DNA of 64,000 nt from Devosia sp. 1566 (GTDB taxonomy: Bacteria > Pseudomonadota > Alphaproteobacteria > Rhizobiales > Devosiaceae): NCBI RefSeq assembly GCF_004005995.1, contig NZ_CP034767.1:1860001-1924000 (forward strand), written 5' to 3'. This document shows positions 46,282-62,083 of this stretch, piece after piece (position 1 is the first letter of the stretch; every line of letters starts with the position of its first letter). The notes under the pieces are model-generated. The model searched no databases. It saw only the letters and a list, made by a program, of their open reading frames with translations, and was not told the DNA's origin. A program made the position numbers and the translations under genes.

Positions 46282-47310
46282 CTACGAAGCGGCAGACCGC
46301 GCTTGTTCAATCCAGCCATCGACCAGATCGCGGTTGTTTGCAATCCATTCTGCAGCCTGCTGCTGGATATCTTGGGTGCTGCCGGCTCCGCTGTTCATCG
46401 CGGCGTTCTGCTCAAAGATCGCAGGGAGCGGGATGGCGGCAACTTCCAGCAGCTTTGCGGCAGCCGGATTGTCCTGGAGAAAGGCGCTATTAGCCACCGG
46501 CACGATGTCGTTTGCCGGAAAGCCGAGTGTGCACGGATCCGCCACACAGCCTTCAACACCCGCGATCACCGCGGCGTCGGCCAGATCGGCCATGTCCTCT
46601 GGCAGGTCCACTTCCGGAACCTCGATCCACATGACATCCTCGCCTGGGACGAGTTCATTGACGGTCCAGTTGGGTGTCCAGGTGTAGAAGAGGATCGGCT
46701 CGCCAGCCTGGTGAGCGGCAACAGCATCAGCCATGGAGGCTGAATAAGCAGCTTTGATCGGGTTGATGTGCTCGCGCAGTTCATAGGCATCGAGATGGTG
46801 TTCGATATTGATCTCGCAGCCCCAGCCCGGCGGGCAAGCCACGAGATCGGCCTTGCCGTCGCCGTTCCGATCGAAGGCTTCCTGCACTTCGGGCCGCTTG
46901 AAGTCGTCCAAGGTCCTGATGCCGAACTTCTCGACCGAAGCCTTGTCGACCAGGTAACCTTCGAGTGCTCCTGCCTTGGCTACAGCGCCAACGATTTCTG
47001 CCTGGCCCTCAAAGGCAGGGCGGTAGGTGTTGTGCAGCGGGAACCAGCCGTTGACCCAAAGATCGACATCACCCTGAGCGACAGCTTGATAAAAGGGTGG
47101 ATTGTCGAGCGTGGTTGGCCCTTCAACCTTGTAGCCCAGTTCTCCGAGCAGTTGCTTGTAGATCTCGGCGTGGAACCAGCCAGTGTCCCAGGTGGCTTGC
47201 GCCATGTTGACGGTCTTGCCTTCGCCCGGGTTGTCCTGGGCGATAGCGGGGGCAGCTACGATAAGCGTGGAAAGTGCGACGGCAGTCAGCGTCTGGGTGA
47301 GTCTGAACAT
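46282..47310 (-). CDS. proX: Glycine betaine/proline ABC transporter substrate-binding protein
   Basis: 342 residues from the ATG at 47310, with GGGAGC upstream; upstream open frame is rejected. A signal peptide (TLTAVALSTLIVAAPAIA) precedes the ProX fold with VNMAQATWDTGWFHAEI, DLWVNGWFPLHNTY and LVACPPGWGCEINIEHH. Several Trp residues (W in ATWDTGWF, NGWF, YTWTPNW) form the aromatic cage that binds the quaternary amine. Third gene of a proVWX operon for osmoprotection or betaine nutrition. Confidence 0.93.
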   Translation of the reverse strand: MFRLTQTLTAVALSTLIVAAPAIAQDNPGEGKTVNMAQATWDTGWFHAEIYKQLLGELGYKVEGPTTLDNPPFYQAVAQGDVDLWVNGWFPLHNTYRPAFEGQAEIVGAVAKAGALEGYLVDKASVEKFGIRTLDDFKRPEVQEAFDRNGDGKADLVACPPGWGCEINIEHHLDAYELREHINPIKAAYSASMADAVAAHQAGEPILFYTWTPNWTVNELVPGEDVMWIEVPEVDLPEDMADLADAAVIAGVEGCVADPCTLGFPANDIVPVANSAFLQDNPAAAKLLEVAAIPLPAIFEQNAAMNSGAGSTQDIQQQAAEWIANNRDLVDGWIEQARSAAS

Positions 47311-47387
47311 TGGATCAGCTCCCTTTTTGGCGTTGGAAGACAGATGCGGACGCGCCAACGTCCGCTCGAGAGGGCACCAGAACGGCG

Positions 47388-47415
47388 CCCGGGAAGGCTC
47401 AGACGGCCTTCCGGG
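47388..47415 (-). promoter_or_regulatory. Stem-loop around the proW stop codon
   Basis: CCCGGAAGGC and GCCTTCCCGGG pair with one bulge; the loop contains the proW TGA. Such a structure in the 88-base proW-proX gap can protect the upstream message or tune expression of the binding protein. Confidence 0.5.
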
Positions 47416-48331
47416 TTTCCCCGGAGGACACAGGTGTCCCCCGGCGGAAGAAGGAAAGAAGTGTCTGGCGAAGCGAGACGGTGCGGAAGCCCTGAGACTC
47501 ACCTAGTGCTTGAGTGATGCGGTCGAGGATAATGGCGAGCAGCACGATGGCCAACCCACCGGCCGTGGCGCCGCCGACATCGAGGCGTCCAAGTCCGGTA
47601 TAGACGGTGAGACCGAGCCCGCCTGCGCCAATCATGGAGGTAATGACCACCATGGACAGCGCCAGCATCAGCGTCTGATTAAGACCAGCCATAATCGTGC
47701 GCAGCGCCAAAGGCAGCTGCACGCTGATCAGCATCTGCCACGGGGTGGAGCCGAAGGCCTCGGCTGCCTCGATCAGATCGCCACGCACATTGCGGATGCC
47801 TAGATTGGTCAGCCGTACGATAGGCGGCAAGGCAAAGATGATGGTGGCGACGATGCCTGGAGCCATGCCCACGCCAAACAGCATGACTATGGGCACCAGA
47901 TACACAAAGGACGGAATGGTTTGCATGATGTCGAGCACTGGCCGCACGACCGTCAGCACACGATCGCTGCGTGCGGCGGCAATGCCCATGGGAATGCCCA
48001 AGACGACGCAGAACAGTACCGAGGTTACAATCATCGAGAGCGTTGTCATGGTTTCGGGCCATAGCCCGATAAGGTCGATAAACAGCAGGGCGAGCAGAGT
48101 GAAGATCGCCATGCCCCGTCCAACAAGGCGCCAGGCAACGAACGCGAGCACAGCGGTGAACGCCATCATGGGCACGGTGTTGAAGAAGGTGTCGAGCCAA
48201 TCGAGAATAAGGGTAACAGGCACCTGCAACGCCCGAAAGAACGGCCGGAAGTTCGGCACGAGCCACTCGCGGACCAGCACGTTGATCCAGTCGGAGAACG
48301 GCAACAGGAAGAAATCGGAAGGACTTAACAT
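47399..48331 (-). CDS. proW: Glycine betaine/proline ABC transporter permease
   Basis: 310 residues with a periplasmic-side N-terminal region (SDWINVLVREWLVPNFRPFF) and about seven membrane helices. The EAA loop is visible as GSTPWQMLISVQLPLALRTI. The C-terminus ends in IILDRITQALGES, typical of ProW/OpuAB. It is encoded between proV and proX. Confidence 0.93.
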   Translation of the reverse strand: MLSPSDFFLLPFSDWINVLVREWLVPNFRPFFRALQVPVTLILDWLDTFFNTVPMMAFTAVLAFVAWRLVGRGMAIFTLLALLFIDLIGLWPETMTTLSMIVTSVLFCVVLGIPMGIAAARSDRVLTVVRPVLDIMQTIPSFVYLVPIVMLFGVGMAPGIVATIIFALPPIVRLTNLGIRNVRGDLIEAAEAFGSTPWQMLISVQLPLALRTIMAGLNQTLMLALSMVVITSMIGAGGLGLTVYTGLGRLDVGGATAGGLAIVLLAIILDRITQALGESQGFRTVSLRQTLLSFFRRGTPVSSGETRKAV

Positions 48332-48339
48332 GAAACTCC

Positions 48340-49554
48340 TCAGGGCTTCGCCGCCGCGGCAGCATCCACAGATGCAGCCGGCTCACCGGAAAGCTGCGCC
48401 AGCACCGCTCCAGGCTCCACCACCCCGAGCAGGCGGTTGTTGTCATCGGTAACGGCAATAGGCAGGCCATTGCTGGCTGGGGCATAAAGCTCGCTCAGCG
48501 CCGTGTCGGCATCCACTGTCTGGAAATCTGAACTGACCACATCGGCAAGGGTTACGCCGTCCGTCCGAACGGCAGCGGCGGCGTCCTGGTAGGTCACAAC
48601 CCCGGCAATGTCCTCGCCGTTCATCACGTACAGTGCGTTGCGCTGCACATCTTCCATGCTCTGGACAGCCGTTTCGGCCGTGTCGGTACCCAACTGAAGG
48701 AATACCGGTTGCTCGGCCACTGACTCGGCTGTGAAGACCTTGCCCCGATCGATATCGGCGACAAAGGCGGCGACGTAATCGTCCGCCGGATGGTCCACGA
48801 TCTCCTGGGCGGTGCCGACTTGCACCAGTTTGCCGTCCTTCATGATGGCAATCTGATCACCGAGGAGCAGCGCTTCATTGAGGTCATGAGTGATGAACAC
48901 GATCGTTTTGCGGAGCGCCTTCTGCAGGCGCAGCAACTCGTCCTGCACTTCTCGGCGTATCAAGGGGTCCAGCGCACCGAAAGGCTCGTCCATCAACAGC
49001 ACTTCCGGGTCGGTCGCGAGCGCCCGAGCGAGACCGACCCGCTGCTGCATACCGCCTGAGAGTTCATCCGGAGCGCTGTCGGTGTAGGCGCCGAGCCCAA
49101 CCTGCTCCAGAGCGATCTGTGCTCTCTTCCGGCGCTCAGAAGTGCCCACGCCCTTGATCTTCAAACCATATGCCGCGTTGTCTGCAACGCTCAAATGGGG
49201 AAACAGCGCGAAGTGCTGGAACACCATGGCGATCTTGTTGCGCCGCACCGCCCGCAGCGTCTGCGGTGAACACGAGGCAATGTCTTCGCTATCCACAAGG
49301 ATCTCCCCGGCCGTGGGCCGGATGAGTCCGTTGAGCATTCGCACCAGCGTGGACTTGCCGGAGCCGGAAAGCCCCATCACCACGAAGATCTGCCCCTCAG
49401 GCACTTCGAAGCTGACATTGTTCACGCCAACCGTGCTGCCGGTGGCCTCAAAGATTGCGTCCTTGCTTTCGCCAGCTTGCATGCGAGCTCTCGCGGCTTC
49501 CGGCGCCTTGCCGAAAATCTTGGTAAGGTTTTTTATCTTTAACTTGGCTGTCAT
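48340..49554 (-). CDS. proV: Glycine betaine/proline ABC transporter ATP-binding protein
   Basis: 404 residues from the ATG at 49554. The ABC domain has Walker A GLSGSGKST, signature LSGGMQQR, Walker B LLMDEPFGALD and FITHD. The tail (about 285-395) has two CBS-like repeats (ALYVMNGEDIAGVVTYQD; NGLPIAVTDDNNRLLGVV), which in OpuA sense ionic strength. N-terminal KIKNLTKIFGKAPEAARARM is typical of ProV. First gene of the operon. Confidence 0.94.
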   Translation of the reverse strand: MTAKLKIKNLTKIFGKAPEAARARMQAGESKDAIFEATGSTVGVNNVSFEVPEGQIFVVMGLSGSGKSTLVRMLNGLIRPTAGEILVDSEDIASCSPQTLRAVRRNKIAMVFQHFALFPHLSVADNAAYGLKIKGVGTSERRKRAQIALEQVGLGAYTDSAPDELSGGMQQRVGLARALATDPEVLLMDEPFGALDPLIRREVQDELLRLQKALRKTIVFITHDLNEALLLGDQIAIMKDGKLVQVGTAQEIVDHPADDYVAAFVADIDRGKVFTAESVAEQPVFLQLGTDTAETAVQSMEDVQRNALYVMNGEDIAGVVTYQDAAAAVRTDGVTLADVVSSDFQTVDADTALSELYAPASNGLPIAVTDDNNRLLGVVEPGAVLAQLSGEPAASVDAAAAAKP

Positions 49555-49914
49555 GTAATCCAAAAGAGGAAACGCGCTGAATTTTCTGCGCGCTCACTAA
49601 TATACCATAAGTTTTACAGTGTTTCGAAATAGACCCTACGCCCATGCTGGCAGCAAGGGCGTAGTCAATCCGTATGTCGGTAATTCGAATGCGCGAAACT
49701 TATTGCACTTGGCTGGGCAGTTCAACCCTTCGTGGCAATTTTCTGACTTTCCAGAGGCATCGAGGCAACTGCTTGATCATCTATCCCGTTCAATGGACTA
49801 AGGTAATCAGCGGCTGAAGTGATAACTGCTTTGCTCGCCCCTGGCAGGGCGCTGGATTAGAGTCGGGGTCTTGCTTTCCTGACGTCGCGGGATGACACAA
49901 CCAGGAGAAAGTAC
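49555..49914. other. Gap with the proVWX promoter, no gene supported
   Basis: An AT-rich stretch (49580-49640) directly upstream of proV is the likely promoter region. A 60-codon plus-strand frame at 49619-49801 has no family features and is not annotated. Confidence 0.5.
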
Positions 49915-53660: not shown

Positions 53661-54809
53661 TCATGAAAGCTTTGATATTCGAGCGTTGTCGATCCGGTCC
53701 AGTGCGGCCAGACGTTTCTTGCGGCCTTTGTCGATCAGCGCGAGAGCAGCTAGCCGAAGCCCTGTTCTATTCCTGACAGCAACCTCATCAATCCGTTCGG
53801 AAGGATCGAGTTCGAAAAACCGCGGCTTTAGGGCTTCAGCCGAAGAAACAGCCGGCATATCGGACCCGGCCCTGCTATCAAGCAGCACATGCAGGTAGCG
53901 CTTTGCCAAATGCGCGAACAAGATTGAGCCCTCCACCGGACTATATCTGAAGACCTGCAAGGCAGCCTGAGCTGCTTCCAAAGCCTGGCCTTTGTTGAAC
54001 AAGATGTTTGCCGCCACCATGTGGGTCGAAAAGCGCGAGCTGTTGCGCACGACCCTAGGTAAGTCGGGATTAGCCGCAAGACGCCGCTCCACTGTTGCGA
54101 CGATTGAGCGAGCCATCCTTGTGCTGTCGCTGGACATATTGCCCGGATAGGAACGGTAACCAACGAGATACGAGGGAACTCCGACGATCCGAAATCGCTC
54201 GGCGAGTTTCAGCTCGATATCCAGGTCTTCGCAGCCTCCTATTCCAGCATCCGCGTAGGACGGATCAAAGCCACCAACACTGAGAACTACCGAACGGCGT
54301 GCCATGAGGCTGCTGCCATTCCCGACGAACTTGCCCACTAGGTGGCGAGCCAGTATTGACCCGCTGCAAACGTCGGGATGAGAGCTGCCAACCACTCTGT
54401 CGTCCCAGTCTATCCTGCGGTGCAGCACGTAGCTGGCAGCATAAATCCGGCCGTTCCCATCAGTCATGGCGCGAACCTGTTCAACCAGCTTTGCGGGATG
54501 CCATAGGTCATCGGCATCAAGGAAAGCAACAAAAGCTCCCCGGGCGGCAGCAACACCAAGATTGCGGGCCCGGGCAACGCCCCCATTGCTGATCGTGATG
54601 ATCCGCAGGCGATCGTCCCGGCGGGTGAACTTCTCGGCTATGCTGAGGGTGTCGTCTGTTGAACCGTCGTTTACGACGATAATCTCGAGATGTTTGTAGG
54701 TCTGCTGTGCTGCAGAGTGAAGCGTACGCTCGATATACTCAGCCGCGTTAAATGCGGGGACGACAACGGAAACCAGCGGATCTGGCCGGGATGGTGAAAG
54801 ATCGTCCAT
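53661..54809 (-). CDS. Glycosyltransferase family 2 protein
   Basis: 382 residues from the ATG at 54809. The GT-A fold shows VSVVVPAFN (13-21), VNDGSTD (46-52), the DxD motif as LDADD (97-101) and CEDLDIELKLAERFR further on. The C-terminal third is helical. It transfers a sugar from a nucleotide donor to a growing glycan or lipid. It is divergent from an ABC exporter and lies next to a GT2-methyltransferase-deacetylase fusion, so it likely adds another sugar to the same glycan. Confidence 0.9.
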   Translation of the reverse strand: MDDLSPSRPDPLVSVVVPAFNAAEYIERTLHSAAQQTYKHLEIIVVNDGSTDDTLSIAEKFTRRDDRLRIITISNGGVARARNLGVAAARGAFVAFLDADDLWHPAKLVEQVRAMTDGNGRIYAASYVLHRRIDWDDRVVGSSHPDVCSGSILARHLVGKFVGNGSSLMARRSVVLSVGGFDPSYADAGIGGCEDLDIELKLAERFRIVGVPSYLVGYRSYPGNMSSDSTRMARSIVATVERRLAANPDLPRVVRNSSRFSTHMVAANILFNKGQALEAAQAALQVFRYSPVEGSILFAHLAKRYLHVLLDSRAGSDMPAVSSAEALKPRFFELDPSERIDEVAVRNRTGLRLAALALIDKGRKKRLAALDRIDNARISKLS

Positions 54810-55105
54810 GGGCCCCTGTCTCGTCGAAGATCTCACGCGGCTCGGAGGTAAACCCTCGCTAAATCAATTTCCATACAGACGCCTACCGCAGAGCTCATGA
54901 TAGGTTTTCCCTGGTAAGGATCAATTAACCAAAAGATTGGGGCTATGGGAGTCGGCGAAAAGGGTTCTGCCCTGCACGGCGCGGGCGCTCCAAAACCGCA
55001 ACAGGCACCCTCGGCACCGTGCCGGTGGGTCGGAGCGTCGGATCCGCGGCACTGTCCGGAAGCCGCCTTTCCACGCGCCAATCGCCTCTCTGCGCGGCAA
55101 GCTCG
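54810..55105. promoter_or_regulatory. Divergent promoter region between GT2 gene and ABC exporter
   Basis: The 296-base interval contains an AT-rich core near 54890-54960 and no conserved frame. It must supply promoters for both directions. Confidence 0.4.
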
Positions 55106-56899
55106 ATGAAAGATGACGTCGCAATCTTGCGAGCGCTCTGGCCGTTACTGGCGACTCAACGGTACGCCCTTGCCATTATCATTGGTCTTGGACTGGCGTC
55201 ATCGCTTCTTGAGGGCGTGGGGATCTATCTATTTCTGCCGATCCTGGAGCTTCTGAGCTCGGAGCAGACATTGCCGGCCGGGTTATCCTTTCTGCACCTC
55301 GCCTTGAACCAGATTCCGGCGAATTGGCGAGTTTCGGTACTCGTCCTGCTGGTTGTAATCAGTATTGGCGCCAAAAATGCGCTTTCCTACTGGAACGGGG
55401 CCTACATCGCCCGGGTGGATGCCGACAACAGTCACCGCCTGCGCTGTGAGCTGTTCACGGCAATGTTGCTGGCCGCACCGGCCTATCTGGAAACACAGCA
55501 GTCCGGACGGCTCGCGAATGCGCTGCTTTCGGAAAGTTGGCGCCTGTCGCGCGCTCTTGGCGCCTTTTACCGGATGATCGTCGACGCCTGTGCAATCCTC
55601 ATTTTCGTCGCTGTGCTCCTAACCCTGTCATGGCGCACAACGCTCTATGTCGCTCCTTTTATCGGCTTGATCGTGTGTGTGATGCATTTGGTGACCCGCC
55701 GCGCCAGGGCGATCGGCGAAGGCGCGGTGGCAACAAACACGGCCTACACCGATCGAGCCTGGGAAACCCTCGGCGGCCTACGAACAATTCAGATCTTTGG
55801 TCGTGAAGCATACGAGGACGAGCGTCACGCTGAGACCTCTTCGGGGGTGCGGCACTACTTTCTCCGCGCGCGGCTGCTTGCCAACGCCGTGCCTTTGCTG
55901 TTCGAGACCCTGGTTGCCACCGCGTTCGGGGTCTGGATCGTCGCGCTTTCGTGGCTGGGCACCGGATTCCCCACCATGGCGGTATTCCTGCTGGTGCTTT
56001 ATCGAATGCAACCGCGGGTTCAGTCCATTGTCGCAGCTCGGGCGGAAATACTCGAATTCGGCAGCGCAGCTCTTGAACTGGACGACGTTAGGAGCGAGTG
56101 CGTGGCGTCAAGACTGCCCGAGGGGGCGCATAGATTTAACTCTCTTGAGCATTCCATAGTCTTTCGCGACGTGAGTGCGGGATATGCGGGCAGGAACTCG
56201 CCGGCTCTATCCGACATCGACTTTACTCTTTTGAAGAACACGACAACCGCCCTGGTCGGTCCTTCGGGGTCCGGCAAGAGCACTCTCGTCAACCTCCTCC
56301 TGCGAAGCATGCTGCCCGACAAAGGCGATGTTCTGATTGATGGCGTGCCGATGCGCCACATCAGGGCGCGGGATTGGCATGCCCGCATCGCGGCCGTAAC
56401 GCAGGACATCTTCCTGTTCGAAGGCAGTATTGCCGACAACATCCGCTACGGGAAACTGGATGCGAGCTTGGACGAAATTGTCGAGGCAGCGCGGCTTGCC
56501 CATGCCGATGAATTCATTGCCAACCTGCCAAAAGGCTACGACACCGAAATCGGGGAGCGCGGCATGCGCCTTTCTGGCGGGCAACGCCAGCGTATCGCCC
56601 TGGCCCGCGCGCTGGTTCGACAGCCCGAGATCCTGGTGATCGACGAGGGGACAAACGCGCTCGACAGCCATTCGGAAAGGCTCATCCAGCATGCTCTGGG
56701 CGAGCTGTCGAGGACGACGACAATCGTCGCTGTGGCCCATCGGCTATCCACGGTGCGCAATGCCGATCAGATTCTCCTCGTCGACAAGGGCCGCATCATC
56801 GAGCGCGGAACCTACAACGAACTGATCGCCTGCGGCGGCATGTTCACCGAAATGGTGCAGCTGCAGGCCCTAGACGCCGACGAAAGGGTAAGGCTTTGA
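55106..56899 (+). CDS. ABC exporter, fused membrane and ATPase domains (MsbA-like)
   Basis: 597 residues from the ATG at 55106; an upstream open frame lacks conserved sequence. About six membrane helices in residues 15-300 (ALAIIIGLGLASSLLEGVGI; VLVLLVVISIGAKNALSYW; MIVDACAILIFVAVLLTLSW) precede the ABC domain: Walker A VGPSGSGKST near 384, D-loop signature LSGGQRQRIA near 488, Walker B ILVIDEGTNALD near 509 and H-loop VAHRLS. This architecture is that of lipid or glycolipid flippases/exporters. The last bases overlap the start of the trifunctional gene (TTGA), so exporter and glycan enzyme are made together. Confidence 0.92.
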   Translation: MKDDVAILRALWPLLATQRYALAIIIGLGLASSLLEGVGIYLFLPILELLSSEQTLPAGLSFLHLALNQIPANWRVSVLVLLVVISIGAKNALSYWNGAYIARVDADNSHRLRCELFTAMLLAAPAYLETQQSGRLANALLSESWRLSRALGAFYRMIVDACAILIFVAVLLTLSWRTTLYVAPFIGLIVCVMHLVTRRARAIGEGAVATNTAYTDRAWETLGGLRTIQIFGREAYEDERHAETSSGVRHYFLRARLLANAVPLLFETLVATAFGVWIVALSWLGTGFPTMAVFLLVLYRMQPRVQSIVAARAEILEFGSAALELDDVRSECVASRLPEGAHRFNSLEHSIVFRDVSAGYAGRNSPALSDIDFTLLKNTTTALVGPSGSGKSTLVNLLLRSMLPDKGDVLIDGVPMRHIRARDWHARIAAVTQDIFLFEGSIADNIRYGKLDASLDEIVEAARLAHADEFIANLPKGYDTEIGERGMRLSGGQRQRIALARALVRQPEILVIDEGTNALDSHSERLIQHALGELSRTTTIVAVAHRLSTVRNADQILLVDKGRIIERGTYNELIACGGMFTEMVQLQALDADERVRL

Positions 56900-59800
56900 A
56901 CGGCGCCCTGACCTTTGTTATCCCGGCATACAATGCTGCCGGAACCATCAGGGATACACTCAAAAGCCTGGTGAGCCAGGGCCGGACCGACTGGAACGCT
57001 TTGGTGGTGGATGATGGCTCCACGGACGCAACATTGGCCATTGTGTCCGAACTTGCCGCCTCGGAACCCAGGATCAAGATTATCCGGAGTCAGCATCTTG
57101 GTGTGTGTGGTGCACGCAATGCCGGCCTTTCCGCCACTTGGACCGAATGGGTCTGCTTTCTTGATGCCGATGATCGCGTCCTTCCTCATTACGTCGAACG
57201 GATGATGGCTGCAGCTCGGAACGGGGCCGACCTCGTGTATTGCGGCTATGACCGCGTCACTACGGCGGGCGAACTCCTGCTGCGCAACCTCGATGCCTCG
57301 TTCGAGAGGCTGGGGTTTGCTTGCGTCGCGCGATACTGCCCGGTTTCTATCCACTGCGTTGCCACCCGCACCCGAGTGCTTTCCGATCTGGGCGGTTTCG
57401 ATCCAGCACTAGAAGTCTGCGAGGACTGGGATCTGTGGCAGCGGGCCGCCCGAACTGGAATTCGCATCCGGATGGTCCCGGAGGCCCTGGCGATCTATGT
57501 CGCCAGTGACCACTCCCTGTCGTTTGACAATGCGCGCATGCTCCGCGACGGCCTCAAGGTACTTCGGCAGGGCCACGCCGCCGACCCGCGCGTGCGTCGG
57601 CCTGCTACAGAGTTCGCCATCGGGCTGGCGCCGGATGGTCTGCCGGCGCAGGCCTTTTACTTCGCATGTTGGTGCGCGGCGGCGGAAGTGGGCGCCGGTA
57701 GAGATGGAACAGCTTTGCTGGCGGAAGTGGCTAGCCAATCCGTGGTCAATCCGGGAATCAACGCTTTGGGGGAGATCATCGCCAATGGAATAATCGTGGG
57801 GTCACGCCAGCCCTCCGCCATGCTCGCTGCTCATTGGGGAACGATAAAGCCGCAGCTGCTTGCCATGGTAGAGCGGCTGTGGCTAAAGCTGAATTGCGCG
57901 GGTTTCGACACGGCAATTCTGTATGCAGTTGAATGCTGCATACTCGGGTTGGGTGGCACCAAAGAGCCGCGACACCTTGACCTGACTTGCCGCCTGGCAA
58001 TGGATTTGAGCGCGCTTAGAACAATCCAAATTCCAAGCGATAGGGACCTGGTGATCGTCGACCTCATGGCAAACTCGCGCCACGTCGGCACCGTGAAGGT
58101 TGGTAGTTTCGGCGGGATCACGGACAAAGTTGTCGCCGAAAGCGCGATTGAAAAGCTTGGCGTTCGGCACTTCATCCGGCACAGCCATGTCTGGGACCAA
58201 CCGAAATTCTGGCTGGGATTCGCAGGTGGATTGCTACGCGAAGCGGCATCGGCCGGCAGCTATGCTTGGCGCACGCGATCCACACGACACCTCGGATTGC
58301 GAGCGAGAGGAGGTGCCGTCCTCAGAAGAGCGGCTTTGGACCTGTACCTGGGCTGCTCACGACCCGTGACACGATCTGTAATGATGAAAGAGGGGGGGAG
58401 CGCAAGCGGAATGGCGCTCGCCCCTCCATCAACGACCGCCGGGGCACCTTTGCGCAAGCCGCCAGCTTCTGCAGTTGACGTCTGGGAGGACGTGTTTTCC
58501 TCCCCCGATCCATGGCAATACGCTTCCGACTACGAGCAGCAAAAGTATCAGTATTCACTTGATCTGCTGCCCGAAGGAACGATCCACCATGCCCTCGAAC
58601 TGGCCTGCGCTGAGGGTCACTTCACCGTCCAACTTGCCTCGAGGGTGACATCTCTAATAGCCGCCGACATCTCGCCCACGGCGATCACGAGGGCCAGGCA
58701 ACGCTGCGAAGGCCTTGAGAATGTCGAGTTCAGAACCCTTGACCTCATCATTGATCCTCTGCCCCATTCCCAGGACGTTATCTTCTGCTCGGAGGTTTTG
58801 TACTATCTGGACGGTGTCGCCGAGATCGCTGCAGTAGCGGGCAAGCTTCGCGATGCCTTGGCACTAGGCGGGCAGCTGATAATGGCCAACCACTTCCTGC
58901 TCAAAGACGACATGACCGCAACCGGCTTCGATTGGGACCAAAATTTTGGTGCCAAGGTGCTGCACCAGCAATTCTTGGCCACCCCAGGACTGCAACTGGC
59001 GCGCTCACTGGTAACCGAACTCTATCGCGTCGATGTTTTCAAGCGCTGCGAGGTCGGCAGTGTTCACCTTGAACCCCAGTTACGTCGAGCGGACCTTGGC
59101 TGCACCCTCGAGACGTCACTGAAACGGAACATTGTTTGGGGCGGCGCCATCCTAAGACGGCGTGAAGTTGAGCACCACCGCACCTGGACTTTGCCGATCC
59201 TCGCTTACCACCGGATCGCCACGGAAGGACCGGAAGAACTCAGGCAATGGCGGGTGGGACCTGGTGAGTTCGAAAAGCAGATGAGGCTCCTGCGCGCGAA
59301 TGGCTATCATGCGATTTCGTCCGAGCACCTAATTGGCTTGCGCCGCTCAGGCAGGTCGCTCAACGGACGGCCAGTCCTTATTACCTTCGATGACGCCTAT
59401 CTCGACACAGCCACGACCGCCTGGCCGATCCTGGAAGGCAACGACTTTACTGCCGAGGTCTTCGTGCCCACAGATCTTGTCGGAAAGGAAGCGGCGTGGG
59501 ATGCCCGCTTCGGCCCTGGCGCCGCGCTGATGGATTGGGACACCATCACTCGCCTCCACGACGAGGGAATGCGTTTTGGCAGCCATCTCGCGAGCCATAC
59601 TTCAGCCCGCCATCTCTCCAGCAAGAACCTGTTGTACGAGGCGGTCAAATCGCGAGAAGTGCTGATGGATCGCCTGCAGGTCGAGATCAACTCTATCGCC
59701 GCACCCTATGGTGCGATCGATGACAGGTTCATACAAATATGCAAGATGGCAGGGTATCAGCTTGGATATTCCTGCGAGAATACCACTGCCAGAATCTCAA

Positions 59801-59922
59801 GGCCCAACTTTATTTTACCCCGCATCGAGGTCGATGGATCTTGGGACCTGGAGCAATTTGCTTCGTTTCTATCACTGGACCCCAACAGGTCGGATGCGAG
59901 TGCAACGGCACTATGCCTCTGA
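56896..59922 (+). CDS. Trifunctional fusion: GT2 glycosyltransferase - NodS-like methyltransferase - NodB-like deacetylase
   Basis: 1008 residues starting at a TTG coupled to the exporter stop. Residues 1-230 form a GT2 domain: FVIPAYNAAGT, VDDGSTD (38-44), LDADD (89-93) and CEDWDLW (175-181). Residues 230-525 are helical with no known family. Residues about 530-750 are a SAM methyltransferase of NodS type: SSPDPWQYASDYEQQKYQYS, then motif I as ALELACAEGHF (near 568-578), and EVLYYLDGVAEI. Residues about 765-990 are a NodB-type polysaccharide deacetylase: ITFDDAY (metal D832/D833), SHLASH (H897, H901) and APYG (936-939). In rhizobia these three activities on separate proteins (NodC, NodS, NodB) make N-methylated, deacetylated chitin oligosaccharides. 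The fusion with an adjacent exporter suggests a secreted N-modified amino-sugar glycan. Confidence 0.88.
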   Translation: MNGALTFVIPAYNAAGTIRDTLKSLVSQGRTDWNALVVDDGSTDATLAIVSELAASEPRIKIIRSQHLGVCGARNAGLSATWTEWVCFLDADDRVLPHYVERMMAAARNGADLVYCGYDRVTTAGELLLRNLDASFERLGFACVARYCPVSIHCVATRTRVLSDLGGFDPALEVCEDWDLWQRAARTGIRIRMVPEALAIYVASDHSLSFDNARMLRDGLKVLRQGHAADPRVRRPATEFAIGLAPDGLPAQAFYFACWCAAAEVGAGRDGTALLAEVASQSVVNPGINALGEIIANGIIVGSRQPSAMLAAHWGTIKPQLLAMVERLWLKLNCAGFDTAILYAVECCILGLGGTKEPRHLDLTCRLAMDLSALRTIQIPSDRDLVIVDLMANSRHVGTVKVGSFGGITDKVVAESAIEKLGVRHFIRHSHVWDQPKFWLGFAGGLLREAASAGSYAWRTRSTRHLGLRARGGAVLRRAALDLYLGCSRPVTRSVMMKEGGSASGMALAPPSTTAGAPLRKPPASAVDVWEDVFSSPDPWQYASDYEQQKYQYSLDLLPEGTIHHALELACAEGHFTVQLASRVTSLIAADISPTAITRARQRCEGLENVEFRTLDLIIDPLPHSQDVIFCSEVLYYLDGVAEIAAVAGKLRDALALGGQLIMANHFLLKDDMTATGFDWDQNFGAKVLHQQFLATPGLQLARSLVTELYRVDVFKRCEVGSVHLEPQLRRADLGCTLETSLKRNIVWGGAILRRREVEHHRTWTLPILAYHRIATEGPEELRQWRVGPGEFEKQMRLLRANGYHAISSEHLIGLRRSGRSLNGRPVLITFDDAYLDTATTAWPILEGNDFTAEVFVPTDLVGKEAAWDARFGPGAALMDWDTITRLHDEGMRFGSHLASHTSARHLSSKNLLYEAVKSREVLMDRLQVEINSIAAPYGAIDDRFIQICKMAGYQLGYSCENTTARISRPNFILPRIEVDGSWDLEQFASFLSLDPNRSDASATALCL

Positions 59923-60209
59923 GCTAAGCGCTGGCCTCGGCTTACTGCAAACCATCAAGCAGGAGTCCGCTCTTGAAGTTGGTGCCTTCAAGCTGGCCGC
60001 TGCTCTGGTGCAAACGCATCTCGCTTTACCGCGCTCATGGTCACTACCCCCCGTAACTCAGAAAGAGCAGTCAGTCGCCTTCCCGAGCCACACCGGCAGT
60101 TGGAGCGCCAAGCATCAGACTGTCGGCTATAGGTACTCGAGTCGCTCAAAGCCGTCATTCTGCAAACGGCCCCAAGTGCCACTCGAAACGGGGCTGCCTG
60201 ACAGACCGT

Positions 60210-60866
60210 CTAGCTTTTGTCCTCCTTTCGCTTGTTGTCAGCTCTAGCCGCGGACTCTGTGAGAGGTTCGAGCCGCATCAAGGCGGCGAACTCCTCATGC
60301 GTTAGAAAACCTAGCGCGACCGCCGTCGCCTCGACTGAGTGTCCGCTCCCCTGGGCCGCCTTCGCAACGGCGACCGCGTTCTCGTAGCCGATACGAGGCA
60401 CTAAGGCTGTTACAGCAACGAGGCTGTTGCTCAAAAGACTCGCAATTCGCGTCTCGTCGGCAACGATCCCTGTCACGCATCGCTGTGTCAGCACCGTCAT
60501 GGCGGCTTCCAGCATACGGATCGACTGGAGGATGTTGAAGATGACAACCGGCTCCATCACGTTGAGCTGAAGCTGCCCTGCTTCAGCGGCGAGGGTCACC
60601 GTCAGGTCGTTTCCGATCACCTGGTAGGCTGTCTGGTTCACGACCTCGGGGATCACTGGATTGACTTTGCCCGGCATGATGGATGATCCGGCCTGCACTG
60701 CCGGCAGGATGATCTCGCCGATCCCGGCCCGCGGTCCGCTGCCGAGCAGCCGCAGGTCGTTGCAGATCTTCGAGAGCTTCACCGCAATGCGCTTCAGCAC
60801 CCCCGAGAAGGTCACGAAAGCACCGAGGTCCGAAGAGGCCTCTACCAAGTCGGTTGCCGGGATCAG
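60210..60866 (-). pseudogene. C-terminal fragment of aspartate ammonia-lyase/fumarase class II
   Basis: The fragment reads YSLIPATDLVEASSDLGAFV from the IS border, through the GSSIMPGKVNPVIPEV signature with the catalytic loop and conserved Ser/Lys, then ALVPRIGYENAVAVAK, to the normal end. About 250 N-terminal residues are missing at the IS border (60867). The sequence EPVVIFNILQSIRML and GIVADETRI fit aspartase better than fumarase. It cannot be active as it lacks the other conserved regions. Confidence 0.85.
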
Positions 60867-60925
60867 TGAATAGCCCCTAGATTTGTAGACGTCTTCTTCC
60901 CTAATTTTGAGGCAAGGAGGCCTGC

Positions 60926-61195
60926 ATGGGCAAAAGCAATTTCACTGACGAGTTCAGGCGCGATGCGGTGCGTCAGATCACCGAGCGGGGCTATCCGGTT
61001 TCGGAGGGTTCGCAGCGCCTAGGGGTGAGTGCCCACTCGCTTTATGAGTGGCGCAAGAAGTATGCCGGGGCGATCGACAAGGGCGATGAACAGTCCGAAG
61101 AGATCCGACGGCTCAAGCGCGAACTGGTGCGGGTCACCGAGGAGCGCGACATCCTAAAAAAAGCGGCCGCGTACTTCGCCAGGGATGCAAAGTGA
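60926..61195 (+). CDS. IS3-family transposase OrfA (HTH protein)
   Basis: 89 residues with HTH SEGSQRLGVSAHSLYEWRKK and the leucine-zipper-like tail RRLKRELVRVTEERDILKKA, the usual OrfA layout. AAGGAGG precedes the ATG. An A-rich heptamer run (CTAAAAAAAGC) at about 61155 resembles the slippery site that produces the OrfAB transposase by frameshifting. The stop overlaps the orfB GTG (GTGA). Confidence 0.92.
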   Translation: MGKSNFTDEFRRDAVRQITERGYPVSEGSQRLGVSAHSLYEWRKKYAGAIDKGDEQSEEIRRLKRELVRVTEERDILKKAAAYFARDAK

Positions 61196-62049
61196 GGTAC
61201 GCGTTCATTGCCGAGCATCGCCAGCAGTTCTCGGTGCGCACCATGTGTCGGTGCCTGCGCATCCACCCCAGCGGCTTTTATGCGTGGATCAAAACGCCAT
61301 TGAGCAAACGGGCCCAGGAAGACATCCGTCAGACCCGGCTGATCGAGGACGCCTGGAGCCAGAGCGGCAAAGTCTATGGCTACCGCAAGCTGCATGACGA
61401 CCTGCTTGATCAGGGCGAGACCAGTTGTGCCAACCGCATCGCCCGGCTGGCCAGACTGGCCGGGGTCAAGGCCCAGATCGGTTATCGGCGCCGACCTGGC
61501 ACCTATGGCGGCAAACCATCGGTGGTGATCGACAACACCCTAAACCGGCAGTTCGACGTCGCTGCACCGATACCGCCTGGGTGCCGACATCACCTATATC
61601 AGGACCCTGGAGGGCTTTGCCTATCCGGCCGTGGTCATCGATCTGTTCTCGCGCCGCGTCATCGGCTGGTCATTGCAAAGCCGGCAGACCAGCGAGGTTG
61701 TCCTGCAGGCTCTTCACATGGCGCTCTGGCGCCGCAAGCCACAGAACCCGGTGTTGATTCATTCCGACCAGGGTGCCCAGTTCACCAGCATGGACTGGGC
61801 CAGCTTCCTGCGGCACCACAATCTGGTTCACTCAATGAGCCGGCGCGGAAACCGCCACGACAATGCTGTGGCTGAGAGCTTCTTCAATCTGCTCAAACGC
61901 GAGAGGATCAGGCGCCGGACCTATCGAACGCGGGACGAAGCCCGCCAGGATGTGTTCGATTACATCGAGATGTTCTACAATCCGACCCGTAAGCATGTCC
62001 GCAACGGCTGCTATCGCCCGTCGAGTTCGAGAAGCCGCACCGAACCTAA
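61192..62049 (+). pseudogene. IS3-family transposase OrfB, multiple frameshifts
   Basis: The N-terminal part reads RYAFIAEHRQQFSVRTMCR and YGYRKLHDDLL with the HTH_21 domain. Near 61570-61590 two one-base deletions disrupt the block VAAP-DTAWV-ADITYIRT, so the first catalytic Asp of DDE falls in a new frame. The second Asp (HSDQGAQF) and Glu (NAVAESFF) are in that frame. A third shift near 62005 changes the end; the original terminus SPVEFEKPHRT with TAA at 62047 lies in another frame. The catalytic residues are present but not in one product. Confidence 0.88.
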
Positions 62050-62083
62050 CTCCGAAGGTGTCTACAGAACACGGGGCTATTCA

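Follow-up and report, generated by a model that had tools for sequence, protein, structure and literature searches.

A trifunctional glycosyltransferase, NodS-type methyltransferase and polysaccharide deacetylase gene coupled to an ABC exporter gene in Devosia sp. 1566

The window, that is, the whole 64,000-nucleotide stretch of the Devosia sp. 1566 genome analysed here, contains a real, intact and coherent locus in which a single gene encodes a GT2 glycosyltransferase, a NodS-type methyltransferase and a polysaccharide deacetylase, and overlaps the gene for an ABC exporter. The fusion is an already known protein type, named by NCBI but uncharacterised as far as the literature was searched. 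We give roughly even chances to the reading that this cytoplasmic trifunctional enzyme, a partner GT2 and the MsbA/HepA-type exporter together produce a surface glycan or glycolipid. The initial annotation, which had interpreted the locus as an assembly line analogous to NodC, NodS, NodB and NodIJ, is partly supported. The features discussed below are the following.

53661 to 54836, minus strand: divergent GT2 glycosyltransferase, likely partner of the fusion (391 aa; PF00535, 5.6e-36)
55106 to 56899, plus strand: single-chain ABC exporter of MsbA/HepA type (597 aa if started at ATG 55106; possible upstream GTG at 55019)
56896 to 56899, plus strand: 4-base overlap TTGA (exporter stop TGA, fusion start TTG)
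56896 to 59922, plus strand: trifunctional GT2, NodS-type methyltransferase and polysaccharide deacetylase (1008 aa, TTG start)
56908 to 57585, plus strand: GT2 domain (residues 5-230; DxD at D90-D92, without QxxRW)
57586 to 58476, plus strand: linker (residues 231-527)
58477 to 59100, plus strand: NodS-type SAM methyltransferase domain (residues 528-735)
59179 to 59877, plus strand: polysaccharide deacetylase domain (residues 762-994; TFDD 830-833, H897, H901)
60867 to 62083, plus strand: insertion element downstream of the fusion locus, context only (transposase-like ORFs)

The fusion protein and its exporter

The three domains that the initial annotation had read in the 1008-residue protein were all recovered by Pfam above the curated cut-offs: PF00535 at residues 7-127 (2.3e-32), PF05401 (NodS) at residues 533-664 (2.5e-18; 67.1 bits against a cut-off of 24) and PF01522 at residues 822-956 (1.1e-17). 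The claim that the key motifs are intact held as well. In an alignment of 65 sequences, the window's included, D90 and D92 of the DxD motif, D832 and D833 of TFDD, and H897 and H901 of HxxxH are identical throughout. Possession of PF01522 together with invariant D833, H897 and H901, which we take to be the metal-binding ligands, places the third domain among polysaccharide deacetylases of the CE4-type fold. Full-length relatives, from 71% identity downwards, argue against chance or misassembly as the source of the ORF or of the fusion.

An AlphaFold2 model built from the 65 sequences reached a mean pLDDT of 90.5 and a pTM of 0.84, with values below 50 confined to residues 500-520 and 996-1008. 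Structure comparison matched the model domains to NodS, to PplD/IcaB/PgaB and to GT2 sugar transferases such as chondroitin polymerase and WrtF. The linker (residues 231-527) is predicted to be mostly helical, with a beta segment at 364-403 and low confidence at 500-520. Linkers are 391-441 residues long in the cyanobacterial and Chthoniobacterales fusions (L035, L040, L106, L032), where, judged by eye, the beta segment seems to be duplicated, and 192-276 residues in the remaining 28 loci measured. Since the chain begins with the GT2 fold and hydrophobicity analysis gave one marginal peak and no clear membrane segment, we expect the enzyme, which shows no sign of a signal peptide, to be located in the cytoplasm and to work ahead of export.

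The exporter gene ends within the fusion gene, as first noted, the two sharing the 4 bases TTGA; the purine-rich stretch AAAGGGTAAGG lies immediately 5' of the fusion TTG. The exporter combines PF00664 and PF00005 (Pfam) and carries Walker A, LSGGQ and Walker B DE motifs. Among the NCBIfam matches listed, HepA scored best (435.8 bits), followed by MsbA (377.1) and PglK (216), all below the respective equivalog cut-offs (725 bits for HepA); the window protein shares with these three the single-chain TMD-NBD architecture. The NodIJ exporter consists of separate ATPase and ABC-2 permease chains, whereas PF00664 and PF00005 here form one chain of MsbA/HepA type, so the proposed analogy with NodIJ does not hold. 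A Pfam search for Wzt_C in the window exporter found none.

Relatives and their gene neighbourhoods

A protein search in which 7995 candidates were scored returned 209 relatives at E<=0.001, the best 120 of which were listed. Among these 120, the closest after the window's own entry shares 71% identity across 99% of the query; the organisms named among the relatives listed include Mesorhizobium and Bradyrhizobium, and identities to the window fusion range from 36 to 71% in the alignment of relatives. A number of the source-named relatives carry the NCBI name 'trifunctional glycosyltransferase/class I SAM-dependent methyltransferase/polysaccharide deacetylase', and the window protein belongs with them, having the three domains in the same order on one chain. 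With WP_094088823.1 of R. leguminosarum pSK03, for example, this domain order is common to the whole length. Literature searches on the trifunctional family, including the phrase 'trifunctional glycosyltransferase' and the topics of NodS fusions and deacetylases, yielded no paper describing it. Some members (P0119, L039) naturally lack the methyltransferase, which suggests that methylation is an addition onto a GT2-deacetylase core.

The unit had been given an extent of 55106 to 59922; both genes are present there, but the divergent GT2 at 53661-54836 was left out and probably belongs to the unit, since similar GT2s adjoin the protein or are fused to it elsewhere. Compared with the three GT2s of the R. 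leguminosarum operon, it is nearest GT2c (246 bits, 46%), then GT2b (192 bits, 41%). Among the 120 relatives listed (out of 209), 27 have a length of 1100-1400 residues; a second, C-terminal GT2 is present in 25 of them, in each case nearest GT2b of five GT2 queries. On R. leguminosarum pSK03 and Sinorhizobium sp. B11 p1, where the fusion of the latter is simply annotated 'glycosyltransferase', the gene order is NAD-dependent epimerase/dehydratase (SDR), GT2, fusion, GT2, ABC exporter, GT2; BLAST showed the identical order on a plasmid of Rhizobium sp. WYJ-E13. A Sulfitobacter plasmid has a GT2, the fusion and then a convergent exporter. In Pararhizobium antarcticum (L026), an SDR gene, an exporter gene and a fusion frame follow one another; this exporter, directly upstream of the frame, is 61% identical to the window's, and the frame reaches the contig end inside the methyltransferase, before the deacetylase. 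The exporters of the window and of the Rhizobium operons are just about 30% identical. Fusion and exporter relatives P0003/P0151 and P0005/P0152 probably share a contig each, judging from the equal contig sizes (97,779 and 14,146, respectively). Some relatives have a fuller operon and others, in Mesorhizobium, lack a nearby exporter or partner GT2; in the window, the fusion is preceded by the exporter and accompanied by a single divergent GT2. In the vicinity of the Rhizobium operon (L104, 21572-25592) are YcaO and TfuA-like genes, together with one annotated as peptide antibiotic resistance.

Neighbourhoods were counted for 35 fusion loci, defined by a best frame matching methyltransferase and deacetylase (34 also match the GT2; the frame of L124 has no GT2 match), and for 56 non-fusion GT2 loci taken from the same scan as controls. 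Within 5 kb, an MsbA/HepA-type exporter occurs in 16 of 35 fusion loci (including a weak one 4.6 kb away in L106) as against 9 of 56 controls, a partner GT2 in 18 of 35 against 4 of 56, a UDP-xylose-synthase-like SDR in 12 of 35 against 1 of 56, and GTup in 12 of 35 against 2 of 56; these 35 loci are not mutually independent, some lie on short contigs (L032 has fewer than 600 bases on either side), and they include the window and L104, the sources of the queries. With these two removed, the counts become 14, 16, 11 and 11, respectively, out of 33.

Four loci without an MsbA/HepA-type exporter (L027, L033, L035, L040) have an ABC2_membrane gene beside an ABC ATPase gene, and Wzt_C was detected in three of the four ATPases tested (L027, L035, L040). 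The pair sits right beside the fusion in L035 and L027; the distance to the ATPase gene is 3.2 kb in L040 and 3.7 kb in L033. With the four pairs as queries, no further Wzm/Wzt pair was found within 6 kb in the rest of the 35 loci, leaving the total at 4 of 35. Both genes occur somewhere in 7 of the 56 controls, and fusion loci are thus not above background. The association with an exporter seen in the window recurs in part: 14 of 35 loci (10 from Mesorhizobium, L022 from Reyranella and three genomes of one genus) lack both types, MsbA/HepA-type exporters having been sought within 5 kb and Wzm/Wzt pairs within 6 kb. Thus, an adjoining exporter is not obligatory for the fusion. Orphan fusions of the Mesorhizobium type (L107, L029, L023, L030, L121) may share a neighbourhood of a small ORF and genes for an OmpA-family protein, a Rab-family GTPase and an adenylate cyclase, as annotated in L107, with OmpA shown in L029 and the rest read from ORF size alone.

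Relation to Nod enzymes and proposed function

The label 'NodS-type' is correct at the level of the PF05401 family; the domain is a relative of NodS and not NodS proper, with 79.9 bits against the 300 of the NodS equivalog (NCBIfam NF041650). In the tree, six NodS rows form one clade (100/100) that excludes the 32 fusion rows, and, as distinct from NodS, the window domain is part of a fusion. By structure comparison it is 24-25% identical to NodS over the aligned domain. NodS nonetheless ranks first among methyltransferases for the fusion by sequence and by structure, with DPW and EVLYYL stretches in common. In seven whole genomes, nine PF05401 matches were obtained at E<=1e-8: seven are fusions and two are separate NodS-type genes, which stand alongside a fusion in two genomes. 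The same threshold revealed no separate PF05401 gene in the window genome.

The domain labelled 'NodB-like' is a deacetylase by family and residues, and it appears nearer PplD/PgaB/IcaB than NodB. It scored 74.3 bits with PgaB and 59.3 bits with IcaB, below the NCBIfam cut-offs of 321.9 and 248.35, respectively, and no NodB model is among the best 25 of 45 NCBIfam families. The family's own deacetylase profile gave 15.0-23.4 bits on five NodB candidates, named only by their position beside nodS. Enzymes of the PgaB, IcaB and PplD types work on polymers or linkage units. The domain of the fusion differs from them in its place behind two enzymes with cytoplasmic substrates, on a protein with no sign of a signal peptide. 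The comparison of the GT2 with NodC fails: NodC is a processive GT2 defined by QxxRW and membrane helices, and the fusion GT2 has no QxxRW and one marginal hydrophobic peak.

We propose that the GT2 domain would transfer one N-acetyl-amino sugar from a nucleotide donor onto a lipid-linked oligosaccharide, that the deacetylase domain would take the N-acetyl group off this newly added residue, and that the NodS-type domain would then methylate the freed amine with SAM. The partner GT2 (53661-54836) would add a neighbouring sugar, and the co-translated exporter would translocate the lipid-linked product through the inner membrane, yielding a surface glycan or glycolipid. We infer the substrates, the lipid carrier and the identity of the exporter's cargo with this product. 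Methylation of the freed amine is suggested by the fusion of a NodS-type domain with a deacetylase and, as for the order of the two steps, by analogy with Nod factor genetics: according to PMC5080398, chitooligomers in Nod factor mutants were never N-methylated without prior deacetylation.

Such modification might instead fall on a residue in every repeat of an exopolysaccharide or O-polysaccharide, the GT2 acting once per repeat and deacetylation and methylation altering the charge of the polymer. We regard this as possible but clearly less likely than the main reading. It is favoured by the closeness of the deacetylase to PgaB/IcaB/PplD types, by unfused GT2 and deacetylase genes within larger glycosyltransferase clusters (L066, L070 and L087, for example), and by the Sulfitobacter locus, which has polysaccharide genes about 3 kb off along with a 'polysaccharide biosynthesis C-terminal domain-containing protein' that is presumably Wzx-like. 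However, no polymerase or Wzx-type gene surrounds the fusion in the annotated Rhizobium and Sinorhizobium operons, and NodS and NodB, the characterised pair with the same chemistry, act on the non-reducing terminal residue (PMC5080398). A bolder possibility is a one-chain cap synthase that would add, deacetylate and N-methylate the last sugar of a growing lipid-linked glycan, thereby stopping growth and marking the chain for export. Wzt carbohydrate-binding domains belong to transporters of capped O antigens, where they recognise the caps (PMC6379404), and E. coli O9a synthesises but does not export unterminated chains (PMC3482155), which allows the cap reading. The WbdD systems of O9a and O8, with Wzm/Wzt, likewise pair ABC export with a methyltransferase-bearing modifying enzyme, a kinase-methyltransferase in O9a and a methyltransferase in O8; the available text of PMC3482155 names no GT2 or deacetylase for WbdD, unlike the fusion. 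That Wzm/Wzt pairs are no commoner at fusion than at control loci lowers the odds of this reading, which we consider unlikely, and it is weaker still for the window, where, in contrast to the WbdD systems, the exporter is of MsbA/HepA type and shows no Wzt_C. Were it true, the non-reducing-end chemistry of Nod factors would be a special case of a more widespread end-capping, served by Wzm/Wzt with Wzt_C in cyanobacteria and Novosphingobium and by MsbA/HepA-type exporters in rhizobia.

It is somewhat less probable again that the methyltransferase acts on oxygen or on another sugar and that the fusion just groups three separate activities. The low identity to NodS, the missed equivalog cut-off and the variants devoid of the methyltransferase would agree with this; the first rank of NodS by both sequence and structure, the shared DPW and EVLYYL stretches and the placement of the methyltransferase next to the deacetylase in three-domain members speak against it. 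A small secreted lipo-oligosaccharide signal resembling Nod or Myc factors, as the chemistry shared with NodB/NodS and the presence of the fusion in Mesorhizobium, Bradyrhizobium and Rhizobium, including plasmids of nodule isolates, might evoke, appears very improbable. The GT2 lacks QxxRW and a clear membrane helix and is accompanied by one to three extra GT2s, the exporter is not of NodIJ type, two genomes have a separate NodS-type gene besides the fusion, and the relatives extend to cyanobacteria, to Sulfitobacter and to a deltaproteobacterial MAG, some of them lying near Wzm/Wzt-type exporters.

Distribution, origin and significance

The methyltransferase-deacetylase part was found in 1 of 75 genomes of the genus (E<=1e-40), in 11 of 397 of the order and in 2 of 385 of the class sample (E<=1e-60 for both), the window genome being counted; the window-type exporter occurs in 1 of 75 genus genomes (E<=1e-120). 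The insertion element at 60867-62083, which we take to be of IS3 type, is a repeat in several genus genomes. A second copy (96%, same orientation) lies at C1:1858368-1859587, 414-1633 bases left of the window, and positions 60115-60866 are 91% identical to C1:1249669-1250442 of the same genome. The rarity of the fusion in the genus, together with the nearby insertion element and genomic repeats, makes the gene look horizontally acquired, a pattern that fits such an origin but is not proof of it. The two element copies bracket about 61 kb including the fusion locus, a possible composite element. Segment 60115-60866 resembles a truncated lyase gene adjoining the insertion element (ORF 60210-60848, presumably fumarase/adenylosuccinate-lyase-like). 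From reading of its ORFs, the region 46282-49563 presumably encodes a glycine-betaine/proline-type ABC importer.

Members of the family turn up repeatedly in soil and plant-associated bacteria as well as in cyanobacteria. If the proposed chemistry is true, NodS-type N-methylation would take place outside Nod factors and surface glycans with N-methyl amino sugars are predicted; a connection of end modification with ABC export could then be tested, and NodS would gain a functional relative outside symbiosis.
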